From: Antedon mediterranea
Taxonomy: Eukaryota; Echinodermata; Crinoidea; Comatulida; Antedonidae
DNA: 64,000 nt
Direction of reading: 5' to 3'
Assembly: GCF_964355755.1 (NCBI RefSeq)
Contig: NC_092674.1
Coordinates: 687,001 to 751,000, forward strand
This document shows, piece by piece, positions 47,252 to 63,122 of the stretch; position 1 is the stretch's first letter, and each line of letters begins with the position of its first letter. A program made the translations under genes and the position numbers. Below the pieces are notes generated by a model that saw only the letters and a program-made list of their open reading frames with translations, searched no databases and was not told the DNA's origin.

Positions 47252-48297
47252 AATCATTAACAAATATATGAAATAATTACTGCATTTATACAATAACTGA
47301 GACATTAAAAACATATGTACTGTACGCCACAATGAGGAGTGGACCGGTGGTTTTGTATTCAAACGAAAAAATTTTTTTTAAATATTTAAGTACGGTAATA
47401 CAGTATGTAAACACGGCAACATGTGAAAGACAACTTTGCAGTTCTTTATTGAGTTTTTTTGTTTTGAAATAAATATAAACTTTCTATAAGCATTGAAACA
47501 GATTTTTATTTATAATACTATAATGCTCTATCTAGCAATAAATGAAATCATTTCATTTTCTGTGTTTGTATGGTGTCCAGGTACTGGATTACATAGTATA
47601 ACAATATTGTAGTAATTTTAAACTCACCATGATGTCTACCTTTAGATAGCTTTATTTGTCCTCTATCATCGATCATATTTAATAATTAAAATAATGTAAT
47701 TAACTATGTAAACAACCTACCTTATATTTACAAACCAAGATTTGCGCGAATGTGTTTTGTGTTTGGCCTGTGGCTGTCTGTAGGCTGTACTACGGTCACG
47801 GTAATTAGCCAGCCTCAACCAGCTCGCGTGACGACTTAGCCTGCCTGGTCCCCTTGCCTTGCTTGACCAGCCAAATATAATTATAAATACTCAAAAGGTA
47901 GCCTACTTACCCACTCAATCTTGATCTCCTATCAGACAAGTATATAATCCTAGTTAAAATTTGTCATAAATATAGCTCCATGATAAACAAATATACAGTT
48001 TTTACTTCGATATCAAAGTTCTCAGGTCTTCTCAGCAGAGGCCACCGTGACGTTCAAAGCCTAGCGCCAAGGATCGTCTGGTACCGGTCATGACGTGACG
48101 TACTCTCTTCGGATTGGCTTAAACTTTCGTTTTGTCCGCATCATCATCACATTAATACCGGGGATTAATACAAAAAAGGTTGAACGCAATTGTAGGCGCA
48201 CTTATCTTTTGGTGGTACTGTAAATTAATTATGGTTACCATGTTTTTATCGTGTGGTGTTACAAGTCTTTTAGTAGGCCTCTCAAGTCATGTTCCTC
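47252..48297. other. Spacer after RFC4
   Basis: Apart from the RFC4 3' UTR I see no gene here. A GC-richer stretch around 47750-48120 has no ORF or motif I recognise. Confidence 0.45.
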
Positions 48298-48300
48298 TTA

Positions 48301-49066
48301 GGCCCTGTTTCTGCTGCCAACTAAATACCGTATATTATACGGTATATTTTTGGCAGCAGAAACTGCGCTCATAAAAAATATACCGTATTTTGTATACCGT
48401 ATTTTCCTCACAAAATTTGTGGATAAAATACGGTATTTACAAATTTATACCGTATTTTTTGTACCCGTTTCTGCTGCCAATAAAAAATACCGTATTTTTT
48501 TTTACATGACAAAAGGTCACCATTCGTGTTTTTATTTTCTGTCAGCTGCTTTATACACGTGTATAGATATATTCAGCGAAGACGTCACAGTTTTACTAAA
48601 TAAATGTGTGTGGGGAAGCTAAAATGTCTGGCCAACTAAAAGGTAATAAAAGAGACAACCACATTTATAAAGACATTTATAAAAAAATAAAGCAGGAGTA
48701 TGGAATAGACTTGTCTCCAAAGCAAGTAAACTACTCAAAGCTGAAGAGCCTGCGAAAGCAGTACAACATTGCAAAATACAATAACTCGGGGAGGGAACGA
48801 ATTAATTGTCCCCATTACGATGCTTTCTGTGCTCTCACAACATCTCTATCACTAGGGCTAGGCTGTTGAAAGTGAGACGTAAAACTTCCTTTATTGCGAC
48901 TTTTAATTATCGATCAAATAAATGAATGGCATTTGGGGTAAAAAAGATGAAATTTAACACGACCACCCAAGAAGTATTGTTAGCAGAAACGGGGTACTAA
49001 AAAATACGGTATAAAAAATACCGTATATTATACCGTATTTTGAGCAGTTGCAGCAGAAACAGGCCC
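48301..49066 (+). mobile_element. PIF/Harbinger-like element carrying a SANT/Myb-like ORF
   Basis: The ends are GGCCCTGTTTCTGCTGC and GCAGCAGAAACAGGCCC, flanked on both sides by TTA (48298-48300, 49067-49069). A 3-bp TTA duplication and such termini fit the PIF/Harbinger superfamily. There is no DDE transposase in the 766 bp, only the small ORF at 48624-48869. Both subterminal regions carry many ACCGTAT words, several as palindromes (ATACCGTATATTATACGGTAT-like). Confidence 0.75.
48624..48869 (+). CDS. Small SANT/Myb-like DNA-binding-type ORF inside the Harbinger-like element
   Basis: The 81-residue frame begins MSGQLKGNKRDNHIYKDI and continues KIKQEYGIDLSPKQVNYSKLKSL and NIAKYNNSGR, ending with INCPHYDAF. 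The pattern (variant I/Y-K-x-I, then a helix with QV-x-x-K-x-K-x-L-x-x-x-Y) resembles the Myb/SANT-like trihelix domain of Harbinger accessory proteins. The protein appears truncated after the third helix. A start at 48606 in the same frame is possible. Whether it is expressed cannot be told. Confidence 0.5.
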   Translation: MSGQLKGNKRDNHIYKDIYKKIKQEYGIDLSPKQVNYSKLKSLRKQYNIAKYNNSGRERINCPHYDAFCALTTSLSLGLGC

Positions 49067-49789
49067 TTACAGAATACGTCGTTGACAGTCAAAGCCCATG
49101 CTACAAACGGATCCCAGCTCTATATAAAAATATAGGACAATAATCGACTCAACTCGCTTGTTTCGTTTACGTCCTTGCGTTGTAAACACGTAACGCAGCG
49201 ACGTATATTTCTATCCTGTTTATTGGACAAATAGACAAACCAAAATACAGTGTTTGGCAAATATTCCATAATTATTTATTTCAAATAAATAAGGAGTACA
49301 ATAAGACTAAATTTGGAAGGCATAACAATTTTAGTCTCCTCTCTGAGAATGCAGTAAAAAAAAAACTTAAGTGTAAAGTACAAAGAATTGAGTTTTTATT
49401 TTAATTTAATTCTGAAATATGTAAATCGTTTGAGTTTCTTAAAGTCATGGAATATATCGAACACAAAATGGAAAAAAACATCTTTGTTTAGCCTTGCAAT
49501 TAATTCACAAGGCCACATTACCACATGTTTTTCTTTACGTTTACAATTACAACAAAATGTACACACGACGTCATTAATACAGATATCAATATCAAAGAAA
49601 AAGTTCATTTCGCCTTTTCCTTAAGCAAAAATTGTTTCACAAAGATTAGTTAATTTTCGAGGTTATTTGTCCTCAGCACTAAAATCTAATTTATATCCAA
49701 TTAACATTTAAATACAAGTGATAGATCTCAAACTCTCGCTCTATACTACAAAGTCTTTTATATATAATTTGTAACTTAACTACAACGGC

Positions 49790-50052: not shown

Positions 50053-53000
50053 CTAAATCAGATCGGCGACGTTCATTGGCATCTCATCTACGACTGTACT
50101 GTAGAATTGCTCAATGTCGTGCATCATACGTTTATGTTCTTCAGTAACAAAATTTATAGCCACGCCCTTACGGCCAAATCGACCACCACGTCCGATTCTG
50201 AAAAGAATTCAATTGAAGGGTTATAGATATATTTCGGAAAGCAATATAAAATATCAACTAATCCAGAAACAAGTGCAATGTGGTTACAGTGACCAAAGTC
50301 AAGTACTGGTACGTATACTAGTATATATGATCATTAAAAGAGAGTCTTCAATTTTTGACCGATAGTAGTAACAAGCTAGGTCAATTGAGGCATCGTCTAG
50401 AAACAAGCTAGGTTAATTGATGTGTTGTCTAGACCTAGGAACAACCAAAAATGGTGTCCAGCAAGGAATCGCATCCCATATGTGAACAATGAATTGAATT
50501 TAAGTAGGTTGTCGCTTAGAAAAAGCTATCCAATGTAAATGATAAGTATTAGTAACCATCGACATACCTATGAATATAACTTTCCCGGTTTGTTGGGATA
50601 TCATAATTTATAACAAGGGACACTTGTTGAACGTCAATACCACGCGCAAGCAGATCGGTGGTAATGAGTACTCGGCTGGAGCCGGAGCGGAATTCCTTCA
50701 TGATCACATCACGCTCTTTCTGATCCATATCACCATGCTGTAAAACAAAATTAATATCAACAATAAACGTTGTGTATAATGTACTATCGTGACAGCCAGT
50801 TTCTCTCTCTCTGCATACCAGTATCCGTCTGTAGTATCTGGCCTTCCTTGTTATGGAGGAATATAGTCATACAAGTTCAGGTATAATACACAAAATACAT
50901 AACATTAAAATGTCCATTGCATGGTTTGACTCCTCAGTGACAGCTGCGTAACAGCTCTGAGAAAGCGCAGGAATATGCAATAGCTCGTCCACAGCAATGC
51001 AAAGCATCCGGGACAGAGTTAATTTCCAACGTAGTGTATGGGAATGTACCTCATTGCTGTTAAGCTGAGCTCCCTTGAACCACAGAGACAGAGCCATGTG
51101 AAGGCCAGTTCACTGGATGTCAACGTTGGGCTACTTTTAAATATTTACTTAGAATCCTTACCATCATAGACACGGTGAAGTCTCTGCTTTTCATTTTGCC
51201 AGCCAACCAATCAACTTTCCTTCTCGTGTTACAAAATATAACAGCTTGAGTAATAGTTAGCGTCTCGTACAGATCACATAGCGTATCCAATTTCCACTCC
51301 TAAAAAAGAAAATAATTTGTCATCGTGCGTAAATACAAATTATTTTTACAACTGTTAAATATTATCTGTACTTTTCTATTGTTTTAAACATTGTTTATAT
51401 AATTGAAACTGCAGTGTATTAAAGATTTTCTGATTTTAATTTTTACATGAATGATAAAATAAAAGATGGATTGAATTGAATTGATAAATATATCTTTAAA
51501 AATCAACCAGAAATTTAAGATTATTCTTTAATTTGTTATCTTGCGTGAAAATACTAACCTCTCTTTCAACGCTAACATAAAATTGTTTAATTCCTTCTAG
51601 AGTTAACTCCTCTTTCTTCACCAAGATCCTGATTGGATCACGCATAAACTTAGTTGTTACTTCTAGAACTTCAGCAGGCATTGTTGCAGATAGCAATACG
51701 ACCTGTAAATCTTTATTTGGCAGTAGTTTGAAGACGTCATAAATCTGGTCTTTGAAGCCGCGAGACAACATTTCATCGGCCTCGTCCAAGACAAACATCT
51801 TAATTTTTCTTGGATCTTTATTTCACAAGAATAAATAACAAAATTGGTTATAAAACGATTCTTATTCAATACAGAAATGGATGCAGGTAATGTTGTTTAT
51901 TGCTGGTCTCCTTGTCATAGCTGCACAACAGCTCTTCAGAGAGCACAGGAATATACAACAGCTCATAAACAGAAAAGGCCAAATCACACAGACAAGCGGC
52001 ATCAGTAATAAAAATATAGAATCAATGCTATTTCTTATGACCATTACACACATTACGGAGCGGATGGGCGGCTCTTGCTCAAGATATTAACATATTCTAC
52101 GTTGGACAAGCTACGCGGTTTTCCGTTACCGCTCGTCTGCGTAAATAGGCCTTACCGCAAAGTTTTGCTAATACTGCAAAAATTTAAATGTATAAACAAA
52201 TAAAAGTGTCCATTGCATGGTTTGACTCCTCAGTGACAGCTGCGTAACAGCTCTGAGAAAGCGCAGGAATATGCAATAGCTTGTCCACAGCAATGCAAAG
52301 CATCCGGGACAGAGTTAATTTCCAACGTAGTGTATGGGAATGTACCTCATTGCCGTTAAGCTGAGCTCCCTTGAACCACAAAGACAGAGCCATGTGAAGG
52401 CCAGTTCACTGGATGTCAACGTTGCAACATGTTTGAGTGCCACACATTTGCTAAATCGTATGCTAACTCTTTTAAACTACTCTCTTACCTAGGGCCCTCC
52501 TAGAAATCATATCGTTGACTCTTCCTGGGGTGCCTACAACTACGTGGACACCAGCCTTACATCTAGCAGAGTCATCAGCTACACTGGTTCCACCAATACA
52601 GGCATGACACTTGGCCTTCATGTAATCGCCCAATGCAATGATTACCTTTTGAATCTACACACAATAAAAAGCATAGTCAAAATTGAATACATCAAGTGAA
52701 TAATTTGATAATTGGAAGATCTGTACATTGTATGTCATTTTGACTATCGCATGGTTTGACTCCTCAGTGACAGCTGCGCAACAGCTCTGAGAAAGCGCAG
52801 GAATATGCAATAGCTCATCCACAGCAATGCAAAGCATCCGGGACAGAGTTAATTTCCAACGTAGTGTATGGGAATGTACCTCATTGCTGTTAAGCTGAGC
52901 TCCCTTGAACCACAGAGACAGAGCCATGTGAAGGCCAGTTCACTGGATGCCAACGTTGGGATACAATCAAGGTTTCTAACTGTGTGATGTAGTAACAATT

Positions 53001-56000
53001 CAGCCTACGTACCTGTTGGGCCAACTCTCTGGTTGGAGCAAGGACCAAAGCCTGGCACTGCATGAGAGTGATATCAATTTGTTGAAGGATTGAGATTGCA
53101 AATGTGGCTGTCTTTCCTGTGCCAGATTGAGCTTGGGCAATCACATCAAATCCTAATGAATCAAAAATATTCATTCTGATAATAAGTGGAAACAAGTTTG
53201 ACCATTGTTTTTTATTGTTATATTGTTTGGAATTTGAATAAAGAAATAAAATGATTCGACAAGACTAGTTAAATCTTAAATTTTAGATCAAATATCAAAG
53301 ATTGTGGTTGTGTGGATTGAGATAAATACCACTTGATTCTAGTAACACCTCACCCATTAAACACAACCGGTTTACTTTCCTTCTTCTTGACGTCCCTGAT
53401 TTCATTGTTACAGAGTAACTCATGCAAGGTGCTTTTTGAAGAAGTTAACATTTCATATATTGATTTACAAGAATACAGCCGCAGCTGTGCTTACCTTTGC
53501 AGCATGGCATAATAGCTCTTTGCTGGATGGCAGATGGCCTTTCAAAGCCATAAGCATAAATGCCTCTAAGGAGGTCTTCTGTTAAACCCATATCATCGAA
53601 GTGTTCTATTATCTCATCCCAATTACACTATAAAATATAAACCAATCAAATTAAGAGGAATAGGTGATTTTTTTATTAAAGATAATAGGTAGAATACAAA
53701 TATCAAAGATTGTGGTTGTGTGGATTGAGATAAATACCACTTGTTTCTAGTAACACCTCACCCATTAAACACAACCGGTTTACTTTCCTTCTTCTTGACG
53801 TCCCTGATTTCACTGTTACAAAGTAACTCATGCAGGGTGCTTTTTGAAGAAGTTACAAAGAATAATTTTTAGTTTAAGGCACAATGAGCAACTGGCATTT
53901 AATCAAGTTTTCCAATTTGTAACTGGTCTAAAGGAAAATCAATAAATTGTTCCTCCAATATATTCACTGGAATCTTACCTTGCTAAATACTGTTAATTAA
54001 TGAACAACTATTAAAAAGGATTATAGAATTCATTGTCTCAGCCAAGATTAATAACATGAAGTAAAGAATTATTCTTTATTACTAGGGATAACGATGCAAA
54101 ATTAAAATTTGTTATTTTTCAACCAATTTAAACATTATATGTTAGTATTTTGTTTCAATATTCCAATAAAAGAATTACGAAAATCTGACTTGTAGTTTTC
54201 GAAATATAAGGTCTAAAACATCTCCGAAAATGATCGTTTTTGGCCACGAACGTTGTAAACAAATTGCGCCCTCAGTCGACAATTGTATGAACCACACCGT
54301 TTTTTGATAAAATAATTACAAATAATTACATTTTATAGTAATTTATTTTGTATATCAACATTGGAAATATCAATAAAATATGTTATTAAATGTTTACAAA
54401 ATATATAAAGTTGTTTATTTAACGGAATTCGTACAAATTCATTGCTCTAAATTTGTGTAGTAACATCAGTACAGACAGACCATGTGACTTCGCGGTACAC
54501 GCGAGAGAAAACATTCCGCTGTGGGTGATTCGCGTCCACCAATCAAATAGCCAGGATCCAAAATCATTCAACCGTGAGCTCTGCCGATCGCTGGAAATCT
54601 CAGCTTTGATTGGCTTACGATGACATCATATCACAAAATGGTGGTTTTGTAGTTGAGCCTCACGTAATTTTCACAATTTTATTTAAAAAATGAAATAAAT
54701 GGACCTGCTTTATGGTATGTGTGATTTTTCTCTAAAATATTTAAATAATAAAGGCTTCATATAGAGAAAAAACCGTTTTTTTGGCACTTATAATAAATAT
54801 TTCTCAGAGAAAAAAGCACATGGCATGTAGAACTATATTATCTTGGTGTAGGAAGACAAACAAATCCCAGGTCATGAGAGGCTCAACTACAAAAACAAGG
54901 TTGAATAGGTTAGGTCACTGGACCGTCGAAGGTTTTTGAGTAAACAATTTACCGCGTATGGTCATACGCGCCAGACAGTACGATATTTTACAGGGCATCA
55001 CGTATGCAAAACCCAGGAGAGCAACAAATCGCTCTCCTCAAATCACCGAGGAGAGCAATTCGCTCTCCTTGCAAAAATTTTAAATCGCTCTCCTCAAATA
55101 TTTATGTTGAAGTTGAAGGATGGTCGCCCTTATTAAAAATGGCTGGCCCTTATTAATTTTTTGTACACATTTTTTTGCCCGACAGGGGATAACCCCCCCC
55201 CCCCCCCCCGGGCACAACAAATGTATACTGTACCTCTCCCCTAAAATCCCCCACACCCACCTTTACACACAATATTTTCCGTGGGGATCGTATTATTCTA
55301 CAGTACAAAAAACTCAAGCCAATTTTTTTTTTATGGCCTGGGTAGATTGGGTTTCAGGAGCCTGGAGAATCCTGTCCTGGCCAACTATATGCCTTTCTTT
55401 AGCCTACCTTTTCTAGCCTAGCTTGTTGGCCTAGAAATCAGACAGAAAACCTGAAAAGTATTTACCTGCAATTCATAAATTATACAATTCTAACATGCAA
55501 CAGCCATTAAAATATTGATAATAAGTTACAAAGTGTCATTTTAAAATAATTAAGAAAGATATTTGATCGTGTTTACATGTGTCACACATGGGCGCACGCA
55601 CAATAGGGGAGGGCTGAGAGAGCTTCTAGAAGATGCTGACGTCACACATCAGCACGTGTTTTGAGGAGGATTTGAGTGACCAAAATTGGTTAGAACTTTT
55701 GAAGAAATAATCCATCTTCAAAATGACATAATTAAAGCAACCAGCAGCTAAGCTTTTTTAAATAATAAACATTATATTTAGGCCTCCTATATTAATGTTT
55801 CCTTTTAAAATTAAATATATTTTATTAACTCGTTCCATAAAAACATAAAGGGAAAAATTATTGGTTGGGACATGATCTTCCTGTAAAGGAGGTGTTTCTA
55901 TGACACCGTACTGGTTGCACTATGAGGCGATGAAGTAAACTCGCCCTTGAATGCGCGCAGGCAGGGGAATCCCCTTTGTTGGTACCTCGCACTGTGAGAT

Positions 56001-59000
56001 GGAGCGCGATGAATTGCTCTCCTTTTCGAAAGTTGTTGATTGCGATCGCGCTCGCGATCCTTAAAAACGAGGGACTGCCATTAGGCTTGTAGCTTTATAA
56101 CTTAGCTTATAGGCCTAGGCCTAGATTGGTTTTAACTTTTAAAAATCCACGTGTTTTTAGGCCTCTTGACAGAAAAATCAACACTGTCAAAATCTAGGCT
56201 CTATTTTGAAAATTAAGGAGCGCGATAAATTGCTCTCCTCAAAGCCTGTTGAGGAGCGCGGAGGAGCGCGGTCGCGCAGGCGCTCCTTATAAATGATGCC
56301 CTGATTTTAACCACATTTTTTACATGTTTGGTTGAATATAATGACGATAAAAAATAGTTGATCTTATGGAATGATATGTAAATAAATAAATACTCAAAAG
56401 AATTATGTTTACAGTTCAATTATTTTCAGAATAATATTACATAAAAATGTGTTTACCAATGGACAAATAATCGCGTCAATGACATAGCGCGCATGGTAAC
56501 GTACGCGGAGTTGAATCGTGGCAGTAACAATGGAGTCAACTCTCGGTAACCCTATTATTACTCCATGATAATGATAATTAAATATTCATTGATAATTACC
56601 TCAATGACACCAGGATCCATGCCTGGTGGGTCAGAGCCTCCATCCTGCTCTCTGTCTCTCTCTCTTTCTTTATCATTTGGACCATTGTCCTGGGTTTGAC
56701 TATAATAAACGACAAATAAATCAAGATTTAAAAAGGAGGGCTAATTCAAGTCAGCTGTACTTCTGTAGGACAGATGTTGGGTTGGAGCTGTTACACAACA
56801 AAGTTGAATAAATAAAATTGTATAACCAATGACTGCGTTTTCACAAAACGGAAGACATCTTTGATTGATGACCAACAATGTTGTGCAGGGAAGTGAAACC
56901 AACAGAAATATCTCTAGCGTTTTCAGGCCACCATGTGCATTAAAAATTTACCGTAAGGCCAAATAAAAAAATATACTTGTTAAGCGTCACACCTTCATAA
57001 ATTTTCAGGGGCGGGGGGACGGTTTTTTTTTTTTTTTTTTACTTTTTATAGAGGTATATTTTTGCGCGGTGGACGTTTTGCCCCACTTTTTTAGGACGAA
57101 ACGTCAAACTTTTAAAATGCGAAACAGAACAAAATTGACTATGTATGAAATATTATTGCTTATGACAAAATTGAGTTTTGTATTGTTTATATCCAGACGT
57201 AATTAAAACATTAAATTTAATTGCCACCAAGCGAAATTGTAGGCCTTAGGCTAACTAATCCGTCCAAGGTGCTACCCCAACCTCACTCATCGGCCATCCG
57301 CCGTCTCTCGCTCGACTCATCTATCCAGGAAATTCCCTATCGCGAGAAGCATGATTTGGTCTCAATAATACTAAATAGTGGGCTGATTTATAGTTTGAAA
57401 ACAGCTTACGGCATTTCTTAAGTGAATTTTTATTCAACGTATTCATTCTTCTTTGATGAATCCTTTGCCAATTGCTGTGTAAATCAGTATTTAAAGTTGT
57501 GATGCAAAAAGTGTATGGAAACCCATCGCCCAACAGGACCTCGTGGTGTGCCGATCTCGAGCGCGAGATCATCGTAAACAAAATTGGTAGAGTCCATTAT
57601 GTATGGGGTGTTTCCTATTTACGAACCTATAAAAAAACGCGCTTCGACCACTGTGTAGGCAAAATATTTATTTCGTTAAATCCCTAAATTGATAATCGCG
57701 TATTCTGTAATCACGTGACTGATGATGTAATCCTCAGCGACGTACTAAATGCACATGATTTAATGTGTTGGGGAAAAAGCTTGCTGTTTACCACATTACA
57801 TGATTCACGGTGCTATTCGCGTTTCCTTTACGTAAATCGGCGGCGTGTAAATGAAACAATTGTTTTCACCAATTTGCCGTTGTCGACATAGAGCGATCGG
57901 CGGCTAGCGTTGTCTAAGCTAAAAAGTATGTATTTTTTCAAAAATTACACTAGCCTAACAAACATTTGCTAGTTTTGAAATTTTCAAATAGCAATTATGA
58001 AGAATCTACTAGCAAAATGCTAGTTTGCTAGCGTGAATTTCGAGCCCTACTCTGGAGCTGGGTCGGGCCGCTGAACTTTCCGTTGTATATCGGTAAAAAA
58101 AAAATAAAAATAAAAAGAGAGGCGGCTGGATAATGAGGAGCGGGCGGTGACGCTTAACAAGTATGTTTTTTTATTTGGCCTAAAATTAAATGAATGAATA
58201 AAAAAAATTAGAAAATTGTTTTGATCGCAAAAAAGACTGTACTGTAAAGGCCCCTAAAGCATACTATAGGCACACTTTCCACATGTGATATTGGCACATT
58301 CGATTGGGACTATAACGTTATGAGCATTGATTGAGTTATTATTACTGAACCAACAGTCCTTCATCAACTTTAATTTACGTTAACTATTTAAATGAAAAAG
58401 TATAAACATTTTCTGTTGAGAAAAAAAATGTTACAATTTACGATTCCAACAATTGTTAAGCACAACAAAGGTTTGTGAATAAATAAATAGGCCTACCTAT
58501 GCCAATTAATTATTATTCCTTTTATTTTTCAAGATTATATATTGAGCCTACCATTTAGGCCAATTCCAGTGTGAGTATTATTAATTTAACTTTGAACGGA
58601 CAACAGAAATCAAAGAATGAAGAACCAAGAAATTTGAATTGCAAAATGGCTGCCATGCAATAAAATTTATTGAACACGTTTATACACGAAATAATAATTA
58701 AAATAATAGCCTATATAGGCTTAAAACAGCAGTTTCATATGAATTACAATATAAATTATTGTAAAATGTTAACAAATATTTACAATGGAGAATTTTTAGT
58801 TTTCTAAGAACTAAAACCGACCACATTTTTTATCGATTCCATCCTCACCACCGACACAAGCACGTGTGTGAAACGGTGAAAATGAATGAGAACTCAGGCA
58901 GGCAGACAGTACCGGTTCATATTGTACGGATTAAAAGACATTAAAAACAATATTTCTACATAAAAAATACTTAGACATGTTACTAAAACAATAAAGAAAC

Positions 59001-59082
59001 CAACATATCATTTAAAATAAAAAATAAAATATCTGTGAATGAAGAAATAGCAAAATTCTTACCCTCTATCATCGCTTGACAT
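50053..59082 (-). CDS. EIF4A: Eukaryotic initiation factor 4A (eIF4A1/2 type), snoRNA host
   Basis: This 422-residue DEAD-box RNA helicase is the eIF4F subunit that unwinds mRNA 5' UTRs. Exons (minus): 59063-59082, 56600-56699, 53495-53627, 53013-53152, 52489-52654, 51559-51815, 51162-51299, 50568-50737 and 50053-50197. Motifs are the Q motif [13 protein letters not shown], motif I AQSGTGKT (92-99), PTREL, TPGR, DEAD (197-200), SAT, ARGID and HRIGRGGR, ending [29 protein letters not shown] and [12 protein letters not shown] place it with eIF4A1/2, not eIF4A3. The N-terminus is longer than in human and charged ([14 protein letters not shown]). Introns 2, 3, 4, 5 and 7 carry H/ACA-type RNA sequences in sense orientation; introns 1 and 2 also carry transposons. 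Confidence 0.96.
50908..51130 (-). ncRNA. SNORA73: U17/snR30 (SNORA73) H/ACA snoRNA, copy A, eIF4A intron 7
   Basis: The RNA reads from about 51130 to 50908. It starts CCCAACGTTGACATCC and carries GGCTCTGTC, GGGAGCT, then the 3'-hairpin signature CATATTCCTGCG (m1 motif) and CAAACCATGCAA (m2 motif). It ends ATGGACA plus 3 nt (ACA box 50911-50913). U17/snR30 guides 18S rRNA maturation through m1/m2 pairing rather than pseudouridylation. Placement in an intron, on the sense strand, is the usual animal arrangement for snoRNA genes. The 76-codon open frame across it is spurious. Confidence 0.88.
51885..52106 (-). ncRNA. Diverged U17-like sequence, copy D, eIF4A intron 5
   Basis: On the minus strand it begins TCCAACGTAGAATATG, like the U17 5' end, and later has GAGCTGTTGTATATTCCTGTG (an m1 motif) and GAGCTGTTGTGCAGCT, aligning with copies A-C. 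The m2 motif AAACCAU is lost (GACCAGCAATAAACA instead) and the first half is much changed. It is probably a decayed copy. It shares an intron with the intact copy B. Confidence 0.6.
52204..52425 (-). ncRNA. SNORA73: U17/snR30 (SNORA73) H/ACA snoRNA, copy B, eIF4A intron 5
   Basis: It is almost identical to copy A over about 220 nt, with the same m1 (ATATTCCTG), m2 (AAACCAT) and ACA box (52207-52209). It differs at a few positions, such as GCAACGTTGAC at the 5' end and AACGGCAATGAGG. All consensus motifs are kept, so it is likely functional. Confidence 0.86.
52738..52960 (-). ncRNA. SNORA73: U17/snR30 (SNORA73) snoRNA, copy C with altered ACA box, eIF4A intron 4
   Basis: It is almost identical to copies A and B through m1 and m2 (ATATTCCTG, AAACCAT). 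After m2 it reads GCGATAGTCA where A and B have GCAATGGACA, so the ACA box position holds UCA. The next ACA lies about 8 nt further on. The copy may be inactive or use a variant box. Confidence 0.75.
53300..53446 (-). ncRNA. H/ACA box snoRNA (unidentified), copy 1, eIF4A intron 3
   Basis: The 147-nt RNA has the canonical two-hairpin layout. The 5' hairpin is closed by CUUCUUC/AAGAAG with an apical GUUAC-UCU-GUAAC. The hinge holds an H box AAAGUA (ANANNA). The 3' hairpin is closed by GGUUGUGU/ACACAACC. It ends ACA plus AUC, exactly three nucleotides after the ACA box. The target and vertebrate counterpart are not identified; EIF4A genes of vertebrates also host H/ACA RNAs. Confidence 0.8.
53708..53854 (-). 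ncRNA. H/ACA box snoRNA (unidentified), copy 2, eIF4A intron 2
   Basis: It is a near-identical duplicate of the RNA in intron 3. The H box (AAAGUA), both closing stems and the terminal ACAAUC are unchanged; the few differences fall in loops and internal regions. It sits on the other side of exon 3. Confidence 0.8.
54991..56303. mobile_element. hAT-like inverted-repeat element in eIF4A intron 2
   Basis: The ends are CAGGGCATCA and TGATGCCCTG, flanked on both sides by ATTTTA. CAGGG...CCCTG ends resemble hAT elements, though the visible duplication is 6 bp rather than 8. Subterminal regions carry repeated GGAGAGC/GCTCTCC and GGAGCGC words around GCGATT. A poly(C) run lies at 55189-55210. No transposase is recognised. 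Confidence 0.6.
56954..58182. mobile_element. 1.2-kb inverted-repeat DNA transposon in eIF4A intron 1
   Basis: A 36-bp terminal block beginning AGGCCAAATAAAAAAATATA and continuing CTTGTTAAGCGTCAC is repeated inverted at 58147-58181 with about one mismatch. The interior has short frames on both strands without recognisable domains, so it is non-autonomous or decayed. The superfamily is not assigned. Confidence 0.65.
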
Positions 59083-60171
59083 TGTATTCTGCGTAAACTG
59101 CGCGGAAAAGACCTTACATGACCGGCGCCTTACAACTCAACGTTTAAATTAATGCTCCTACGCCTATTTCACAGCACTACTTTTTAGTTCAAAGTTTATG
59201 TCCACAGTTAGCAAATCAAAATTCTCATAAATTTATTTCTAACCATCAAAATTAAGAAAACAATATTTTACTGATATTCTTTTTTAAATTCATGCTGGTT
59301 TAAACAATATTAATATACTTATATAATGGGCGGAATGTTATGTAGAGTGAAGAATGGGATCTGGCTACGTTATTCCCTCCCTTTGTCGACATAAGAACAA
59401 GGATTTTGATTGGTCAACACATTATGACCAAAGTTAGTATTTCGCAATACATCGGTGGTAGAGTCATGGTCTATTAAAAAAAAAGTCCAGATTTATTTTG
59501 CAATTCATCATTCCAAATTGTGTTATTGTGTAATGTAATTTGTTGGAATGGAGGAGGAGACAAATTCACGTAAATAATAACAAAATACCATTGCGAAATA
59601 ATCGTCGTGAAGTGACGTAAACGTACACATGCAAGATGCTCATGCTTGTTGCTTTTTAGGAGCAATTTCATATTATATAACAGTAGGCCTAACACTAAAA
59701 AAGGGGTTTTTTTTTCCAATAATTTAAAAATCGAGACTGTAATTAAAAATCTTTTTTAAAAATTCGATGAGATGACAATATATGAATTGTTTGCATTTAA
59801 TGTATTTGGGATGAGATCAAGCTCTCTCTCCCTCAAGGATTTTTAAATTAAGGACGTATAGCCTACTCAACTCTTATAATAAAAAAGGAGGGATCATGCC
59901 TAAATAGGATCGTCATTTCTATTAATAATTTTAACCGGCAATTAATGTCAATCAATTAATTCTTGTACTTTGTAACTGAGACTTTTAAAGCTATACAGGC
60001 ATGAATTTTAAATATAATATCTGGTTAATTGTACATCAAATATTTGTAACAGAAATCAAGACGAAAAAGCATGAATTTCCCTAATATGGTCAAATACAAA
60101 ATTTTTCAAAAATTTGCCATAAAAACCAGGAAGACTTTTTTTCAGTAGTTAGGTAGTTTAACCAATGTAAT

Positions 60172-60187: not shown

Positions 60188-63122
60188 TTATTAAAAAATG
60201 ATTGTACTGCCAATGAGAGCATAGAAGCAAAAATTGCAAAAAAAAACAAAAAAGCTGGAAAATATTTATGATAATGAAACAAAAGGTGCATACGTTCTAG
60301 AGTAAAATGGATCGAAGAGGGCGAACGTAGCACTAAATATTGTCTTAGTCAGGAAAAAAATAAGGGGAAAAAAAACCAAATCAAATGTTTACAAAACGAG
60401 AAGGGTAGAGTACTAACGAAGACAAAGGAAATCCTTTGTGAGGAAGTTAGATTTTATAGGCATCTATATGCAAATAAGGGTATACCCCTTAAAAAAATAA
60501 ACACTTACCTAGATAAATCAAATGTAACGAGTTTAACTGAAAAAGAAAAGGGGATATGTGAAGGTATTGTCACAATAAATGAATGTACCAATGCAATTAA
60601 AAAAATCAAATTAAATAAAACTCCCGGATGTGATGGCTTGACCGTTGAGTTTTATTTACATCTCTGGGATGACATTAAACACATTGTTTGTGACGCTCTA
60701 AATGCATGTTATTTTAACAATGAAATGAGTTCTACACAGAAACGTGGTATTGTAAGCCTATTATACAAAAAAGGTGATAAAAAATTGCTTGAAAACTGGC
60801 GTCCTATCACTTTATTAAATACAGACTACAAAATTTTAACTCAAATTCTATGTATGAGACTTCATAAAGTAATTGAAAATGTAGTTGACAATGACCAAAA
60901 GGGGTACATTAAAGGACGATTCGCTGGAGAAAACGTCCGTCTAATTAATGATATTCTGTATTATACAGCAGAAGAACAAATCGAAGGAGCTATTCTATTC
61001 CTTGATTTTAGAAAAGCATTTGATTTTGTAAATAGAGATTTTATGTTTAAGGTACTAAAAAAATTTAATTTTGGAGACTCCTTTTTAAAATGGGTAAATA
61101 CAATTTATAGTAAATCTGAATGTGTTATTGTTAATAATGGTTGGATATCAGAAAGTTTTGAAATGGAATGCGGAATAAGACAGGGTTGCCCATTGTCGGC
61201 GTTACTCTTTATTTTAGTAGTAGAAATTATGGCGTGTAATATAAGAAAAGATAAATGCTATAAAGGAATATCTTTACCTAACAATGATAATGGTGAGGAA
61301 GTTCGCATTGCGCAGCTGGCAGATGACACTGTACTCTTTATGGGAAATGAAAAAAGTATAGAGATTGGTTTAAACATTGTTAACAAGTTTGGTAAAGTGT
61401 CTGGTATGACTTTAAATTAAAAAAAAACCAACGCTATATGGATTGGCAAAAATGTAAACAAAATTCAAAAACCATGCAGTCTAAATTGGGTTAATGAACC
61501 AATTAAGATTTTGGGTATTTATGTGGGATATAATGAGAACAAATGCAGTGAATTAAATTGGGATAGTAAGGTGGCAAACTTAGAAATGCTACTCATAGAT
61601 GGAAAGGAAGAAACCTAACCTTTTTTGGCAAAGTTACCATTTTAAAAAGTTTAGCTTTGTCTAAACTAACATACAATGCATGTATAATTGATGTACCAGA
61701 TGATGTTATTTTTAAAATAAATAAATTGATATATAACTTTTTATGGAATGGAAAAACAGAAAAAATAAAAAGAAAAACTTTAATCGGTAAAATGATTAAA
61801 GGGGGCATAGGCATGCATGATTTCGCATTACACATAAACTCTCTGAAAATGATATGGGCAAGAAAATTACTGTGTAGAAAACACGTAAGATGGAAAATCT
61901 TACCACTATACTATTTTAACAAATTTGGAACCGAACAACTAATTTTAAGTATGTCAATTATCAATTTTCAAAATAACATGGGCTTAGATAATATACCATC
62001 TTTTTATTATAATGTTCTAAAGTGTTGTGTTGAATTTAATAATATGAATAATGAAGGTACAATTAACGAGTATGAAGAAGTGATAAAGCAAAACTTATGG
62101 GGTAATAATGATATTAAATGTAGAAACAAACCACTATTCTTTAAGAACTGGATAGATGCAGGTTTTAATCAAATTGGAGATATAATTATTTTCAATCGTC
62201 TAATGAAACCTATAGAAATAATTAAACAATTACGTACTAAGAAAAACTGGATAGCTGAATATGTTTCTCTAACCAGAGCTATTCCAAAAAAGTGGTTAAG
62301 TATAATTAAACATAATATGCCAAATATGAACCAATATATGAATGTGAATCTGGAATACAATATCAACAATATAATTAAGATGACAACAAAAGATGTTTAT
62401 TCTAACTTTGTTAATAATGTTTTTATTCCCCCGAAAAGCATACTTAAATGGAATAACATATTTAATGAAGATATCAAGTGGTGTGATGTCTGGAAAAGAA
62501 AAGTGAAAAACGAAAAAATTAAGAAATTCGCCCAATTGAATTACAAATTACTAAATAGAGTTGTACCTACAAATCTAAAACTGTATAACTGGAAACTGAA
62601 AAATAATAACATATGTAACAATTGTGGAGTCATTGAAGACGAAAAACATATGTTTTATTATTGTAGACGTAATCAAATACTATGGGAAAAAATTGACAAT
62701 ATATTTAAAAAGCTAGATAACAGCAGTAGCTCGTTCAAAGAACTCCTGTTAGGAAGTAAATGTCAATTAAAAAACCAATTGTATTCAATAGCTGTGTACG
62801 TCATATACATAATTAAAATTAAAACTGAACTTAAAAAACCTGTATGCCAGAATCCCTGGATTCAGTTTAAATATATTTTAAAAGATATGAATACACTAGG
62901 CATGTTGTAACTTATAAGTGGCATCCATTTTTGTATTTTAAGATGTACAGTTTTTGTATGCATATAATCAAACCACTATATGTATAAAGGCTAAAAGAGT
63001 AAAAATCAGAAAATAACGAAAAAAGTAGAAAACAGAAATTTAATGTATGAAAATGAAATGTGAACGAAATTTGTATGAAAGAATGAATAAAGGTGGTGGT
63101 TAACCACAAAAGAGAAAAAAAA
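60188..63122 (+). mobile_element. 5'-truncated L1/Tx1-type non-LTR retrotransposon
   Basis: The insertion carries a reverse transcriptase ORF2 without its endonuclease. Reading starts near 60258 (KLENIYDNETKGAY), shifts frame, then continues VKWIEEGERSTKYC and NKTPGCDGLTVEF. RT motifs are WRPITLLNTDYKI, LDFRKAFDFVNR, GIRQGCPLSALLF and LADDTVLF. After a stop at 61418-61420 the family sequence continues (KKTNAIWIGKN); near 61590 there is a further frame change, then an open frame 61657-62910 (LSKLTYNACI, FLWNGKTEKIKRKTLIG) ending in a CCHC knuckle (CNNCG, HMFYYC). The 3' end is A-rich (AAAAGAGAAAAAAAA). Exact 16-bp target duplications show a complete TPRT event. Confidence 0.9.
60260..62910 (+). 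pseudogene. L1/Tx1-like ORF2 (reverse transcriptase and C-terminal domain), broken
   Basis: This is the coding part of the element: RT fingers-palm, thumb and C-terminal zinc knuckle. At least one nonsense codon (61418-61420) and two frameshifts (about 60295 and 61590) break it. The few lesions and the intact target duplications suggest a fairly young insertion. The catalytic box reads LADD rather than the usual YADD or FADD. Confidence 0.85.

Follow-up and report, generated by a model that had tools for sequence, protein, structure and literature searches.

The genome of the crinoid Antedon mediterranea carries three copies of the box H/ACA snoRNA U17/snR30 (SNORA73) in introns 4, 5 and 7 of a single gene for the translation initiation factor eIF4A. 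The identification of these intronic copies as U17/snR30 genes is solid. That they are genuine genes lying sense to the animal's only canonical eIF4A and most likely served by the standard intronic biogenesis, we hold with high confidence.

First, the copies match the U17 family over their full length. A scan (cmscan) of the window, that is, the whole 64,000-nucleotide stretch analysed here, against all Rfam families returned three full-length matches to RF00045 (SNORA73, U17/snR30), all on the minus strand and sense to eIF4A: copy 1 at 50908-51129 in intron 7 (130.9 bits, E 2e-32), copy 2 at 52204-52425 in intron 5 (126.1 bits) and copy 3 at 52738-52959 in intron 4 (119.9 bits), each well past the family's gathering score of 74 bits. 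This Infernal/Rfam check bears out a sequence-only reading of the same DNA, which had already named the copies U17/snR30/SNORA73. Each copy is 222 nt long, and any two differ at 5 to 13 of the 222 positions; an independent repeat finder delimits the same three as a direct-repeat family of 225 nt with 95-98% identity to the reference copy. The m1 (ATATTCCT) and m2 (AAACCAT) elements are intact in all three, as had been claimed, and the predicted folds of every copy put both m1 (AUAUUCCUG) and m2 (AAACCAU) in the 3′ hairpin, inside its internal loop or next to it. Copies 1 and 2 are complete: each shows by inspection an H box (AAATTA in the DNA, AAAUUA in the RNA) of the form ANANNA, and in each the ACA box follows the start of m2 at the proper distance, 14 nt. 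Copy 3 fails the ACA part of this arrangement, since it reads TCA at the place of the box and its next ACA lies 8 nt further on (+22 as against +14); the earlier description of "mostly an ACA end" thus applies to two of the three. The CCAACGT start ascribed to the whole set is found in copies 1 and 3 but not in copy 2, whose first base has changed from C to G (GCAACGT). From these features, copies 1 and 2 are probably working genes, and copy 3, through the loss of its ACA box, probably accumulates poorly and is weak or non-functional.

Second, the host is a complete protein-coding gene. Joined at their donor and acceptor sites, nine exons on the minus strand run from an ATG at 59082 to a stop at 50053 and give a continuous protein of 422 aa, the introns being of the GT-AG type. 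The exons lie at 59063-59082 (exon 1, with the ATG, a GTAAG donor and the joined protein open), 56600-56699 (exon 2), 53495-53627 (exon 3), 53013-53152 (exon 4), 52489-52654 (exon 5), 51559-51815 (exon 6, with the DEAD box), 51162-51299 (exon 7), 50568-50737 (exon 8) and 50053-50197 (exon 9, with the stop), so the introns that bear U17 span 53012-52655 (intron 4), 52488-51816 (intron 5) and 51161-50738 (intron 7). Once the first two exons had been placed, the coordinates, strand and intron numbers originally assigned to three near-identical sense copies of ~220 nt all held, as did the naming of the host as eIF4A, now reconstructed in full as a gene of the eIF4A-I/II type. The best PDB match of the protein is eIF4A-I (701 bits, E 4e-210), ahead of eIF4A-III (607 bits), which makes this the initiation factor and not its exon-junction-complex paralogue. 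The next-closest gene in the genome, on contig C10, shares 43-86% identity per exon and is probably eIF4A-III, and no other gene comes as close; judged by these comparisons, the host is the animal's only canonical eIF4A gene. Open frames 73-94 aa long do run across the U17 copies; might the copies be conserved short coding sequences, either alternative exons or hypothetical ORFs, and not RNA genes? We give this next to no credence, because the covariance model is matched from end to end, structure and box motifs included, and because splicing at the donors and acceptors of the neighbouring exons removes the copies and leaves an intact eIF4A; the sequence-only reading had likewise warned against taking them for hypothetical ORFs. 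5′ TOP start sites are known in many snoRNA host genes, and a CTTTTCC that precedes the eIF4A start codon by about 25 nt (59083-59112, minus strand) resembles such a site and is a putative one.

Third, no source of U17 other than this eIF4A gene is visible in the genome. An RF00045 search of the whole 354-Mb assembly, in which the best candidates were scored and stretches of N could hide a locus, found no further U17 locus beyond these three, and a DNA search of the genome with copy 1 returned the same three copies and no other; the identification has thus met neither a missing covariance-model match nor an alternative U17 locus. A need for U17/snR30 in 18S processing is, as far as is known, general in animals. 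The RNA is critical for this processing where it has been tested (PMC7601244), and, with only three copies in the genome, at least one of them should work and very probably does. These searches also bear on the idea that the copies are retroposed snoRNA pseudogenes, the functional U17 gene lying elsewhere. Some decay evidently occurs, as the lost ACA box of copy 3 and a relic nearby attest, and H/ACA copies in mammals have mostly spread by retrotransposition, to which the scattering of most human copies among different hosts has been put down (PMC8178906). Yet no copy elsewhere came to light, all copies sit sense in one gene with m1 and m2 intact in each, and A-tails or adjacent target-site duplications were looked for beside the copies and not found, which together make such an origin most improbable.

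The history of the set as genuine U17 genes can be read in part from the copies themselves. Their near-identity ends close to the RNA ends and their flanks do not align; copies 1 and 3 differ at nine positions, six of them within the last 11 nt. A pattern of this kind would be better explained by recent copying, or by gene conversion from intron to intron, than by retroposition; the set probably arose by duplication between the introns of one gene, and the same two processes may have kept its members alike. A fourth copy has already decayed: downstream of copy 2 in intron 5, a stretch at 51894-51986 on the minus strand aligns locally with the 3′ hairpin region of U17 at a score of 79, where 500 dinucleotide shuffles reached at most 42. 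It keeps m1, its m2 is broken, and cmscan gives it no Rfam match. With probably working, failing and relic members side by side, the gene offers a compact natural case of how H/ACA copies are born, probably homogenised and lost to decay.

Fourth, the copies can pair with the animal's own 18S rRNA, which was located by sequence pattern, with expansion segment 6 (ES6) read from several rDNA copies and one copy (L015) left out for having no recognisable full 18S. At rm1 this 18S reads GCAUGGAAUAAU / GCAUGGAAUAAUGG; the vertebrate rm1 sequence is CUAGGAAUAAUGG. The duplex of the crinoid's own m1 and rm1 is predicted at -10.9 kcal/mol, compared with -6.9 for a vertebrate-type m1 on the same rm1, because UAUUCC is followed by a UGC that is able to pair with GCA if a single U bulges out. 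As the crinoid m1 also pairs with a vertebrate-type rm1 (-11.5 kcal/mol), the covariation is suggestive and not strict, and this one comparison in one species points in the direction expected if U17 acts on this animal's 18S. The rm2 sequence GUUGGUUUU is also present, and by inspection the AAACCA of m2 can pair with UGGUUU, so that m1 and m2 both find complementary sites in the animal's own ES6. The m1 variant AUAUUCCUG is listed for Tetrahymena and C. glabrata too, and variation in m1 and m2 is matched by changes in rm1 and rm2 (PMC7601244). As a side observation, the rDNA on contig C2 is scattered in many partial copies, several of which have an intact 18S 3′ end and lack the upstream 18S landmarks.

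From this anatomy, the most likely route from eIF4A transcript to U17 supply is the standard one. The eIF4A pre-mRNA would be transcribed and spliced, and its debranched introns trimmed by exonucleases to ends shielded by the bound H/ACA proteins; the mature U17 of ~220 nt would then pair through m1 and m2 with rm1 and rm2 in ES6 of the 18S pre-rRNA and thereby support 18S processing. A tie between eIF4A transcription and U17 supply would follow from such intronic placement and biogenesis, though one of the three copies has lost its ACA box. It has also to be considered whether the copies are under selection for regulating eIF4A splicing, for instance through snoRNP assembly vying with splicing, beyond supplying U17. 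Computed from the coordinates, the distance to the 5′ splice site is short in every case (about 32, 63 and 53 nt for copies 1, 2 and 3), and intronic snoRNAs have been reported to affect host splicing (PMC10324135); as dosage and duplication by themselves explain the repetition across introns, we consider a selected role of this kind highly unlikely.

The U17 genes share their host with a second H/ACA family, present at 53300-53446 in intron 3 (copy a) and at 53708-53854 in intron 2 (copy b), both on the minus strand, 97% identical and with the same pockets; a genome search found just these two copies. They match RF00412 at 26.9 and 29.2 bits, short of its gathering score of 80 bits. On the animal's own 28S, taken from a single and possibly imperfect rDNA copy (L022), one pocket forms 4+9 pairs around GACG[UC]GCUUUUUGA and the other 7+6 pairs around UGGAUUG[UU]CACCUA, each pocket lying 14 nt from its own box, H (AAAGUA) or ACA. 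The target sites (1504 and 1573 of the L022 reverse strand) are 69 nt apart, and both SNORA21 sites are thus accounted for by two pockets of one RNA. Chicken SNORA21 (ACA21), which resides in intron 3 of RPL23, addresses the same pair of sites at the same spacing (28S 3886 and 3955; PMC2653536); the crinoid RNA instead occurs twice, in introns 2 and 3 of eIF4A, and has diverged too far for the Rfam cut-off. Judged by its pockets, this RNA is the equivalent of SNORA21 in function despite the failed Rfam score. The names ceN82 and SNORA81 were rejected for this family, as in a scan of rRNA pieces both pockets found their best fit at the pair of SNORA21 sites.

Taken at its boldest, the arrangement would make eIF4A the obligate and sole source of U17 by selection, two H/ACA families having been amplified over five of the eight introns to make 40S biogenesis keep step with the expression of a core helicase of cap-dependent initiation, and gene conversion homogenising the copies; we regard this as rather doubtful.

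How unusual is this arrangement? Intronic snoRNAs move among broadly expressed genes (PMC3511168), and two H/ACA families multiplied inside one host are less usual than the human pattern of separate hosts, yet such multiplication is not new in view of U17 in Xenopus. There, as reported in 1994, U17 occupies every one of the six introns in a ribosomal-protein gene; it is made by exonucleolytic trimming of the introns, the same route that we infer here. In both animals U17 is repeated across introns of a single protein-coding gene whose product belongs to the translation machinery; they differ in the host (eIF4A as against a ribosomal-protein gene), in number (three copies and a relic as against six) and in the second H/ACA family that shares the crinoid host. 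In human, U17a and U17b likewise place more than one copy of the same RNA in introns of one host, U17HG (SNHG3), which has no protein-coding potential, whereas the host here codes for eIF4A (PMC7601244). Vertebrate EIF4A2 is in turn an eIF4A gene with intronic H/ACA snoRNAs: introns 3, 8 and 9 of the chicken gene host three snoRNAs (PMC2653536) and the human gene hosts SNORA63 (PMC7072173), although the families differ, U17 and SNORA21 being absent from those listed there. The sequence-only reading had set the crinoid gene against human SNHG3; it was right that the human host is non-coding, but SNHG3 is a poor yardstick and the novelty was overstated, given the six ribosomal-protein introns of Xenopus and the other snoRNAs of vertebrate EIF4A2. 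The open-access literature, invertebrates included, yielded no report of U17 in eIF4A introns, a weak indication that none exists; what appears to be new is the combination of U17 and eIF4A alone, repeated intronic U17 being already known, for example from frogs. The host of U17 thus differs by animal lineage, from a ribosomal-protein gene in Xenopus through the non-coding U17HG in mammals to eIF4A here, and another translation-machinery host with repeated copies adds a useful data point on what governs the choice of snoRNA host, co-regulation with ribosome production or only broad expression.

Finally, mobile elements lie on either side of the eIF4A gene. Just upstream of it, two adjoining ORFs on the plus strand (60278-62910) match a reverse transcriptase (PF00078, E 1e-31) and, weakly, zf-RVT, the signature of a LINE-type retrotransposon. 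At about 48300-49072, terminal inverted repeats (GGCCCTGTTTCTGCTGC / GGGCCTGTTTCTGCTGC) with TTA at both sides enclose a Myb/SANT-like ORF (PF13837, E 2e-9), and the element looks like a non-autonomous DNA transposon of the PIF/Harbinger type; a weak mir-1784 match at 48291-48381 sits on the palindrome at its left end.
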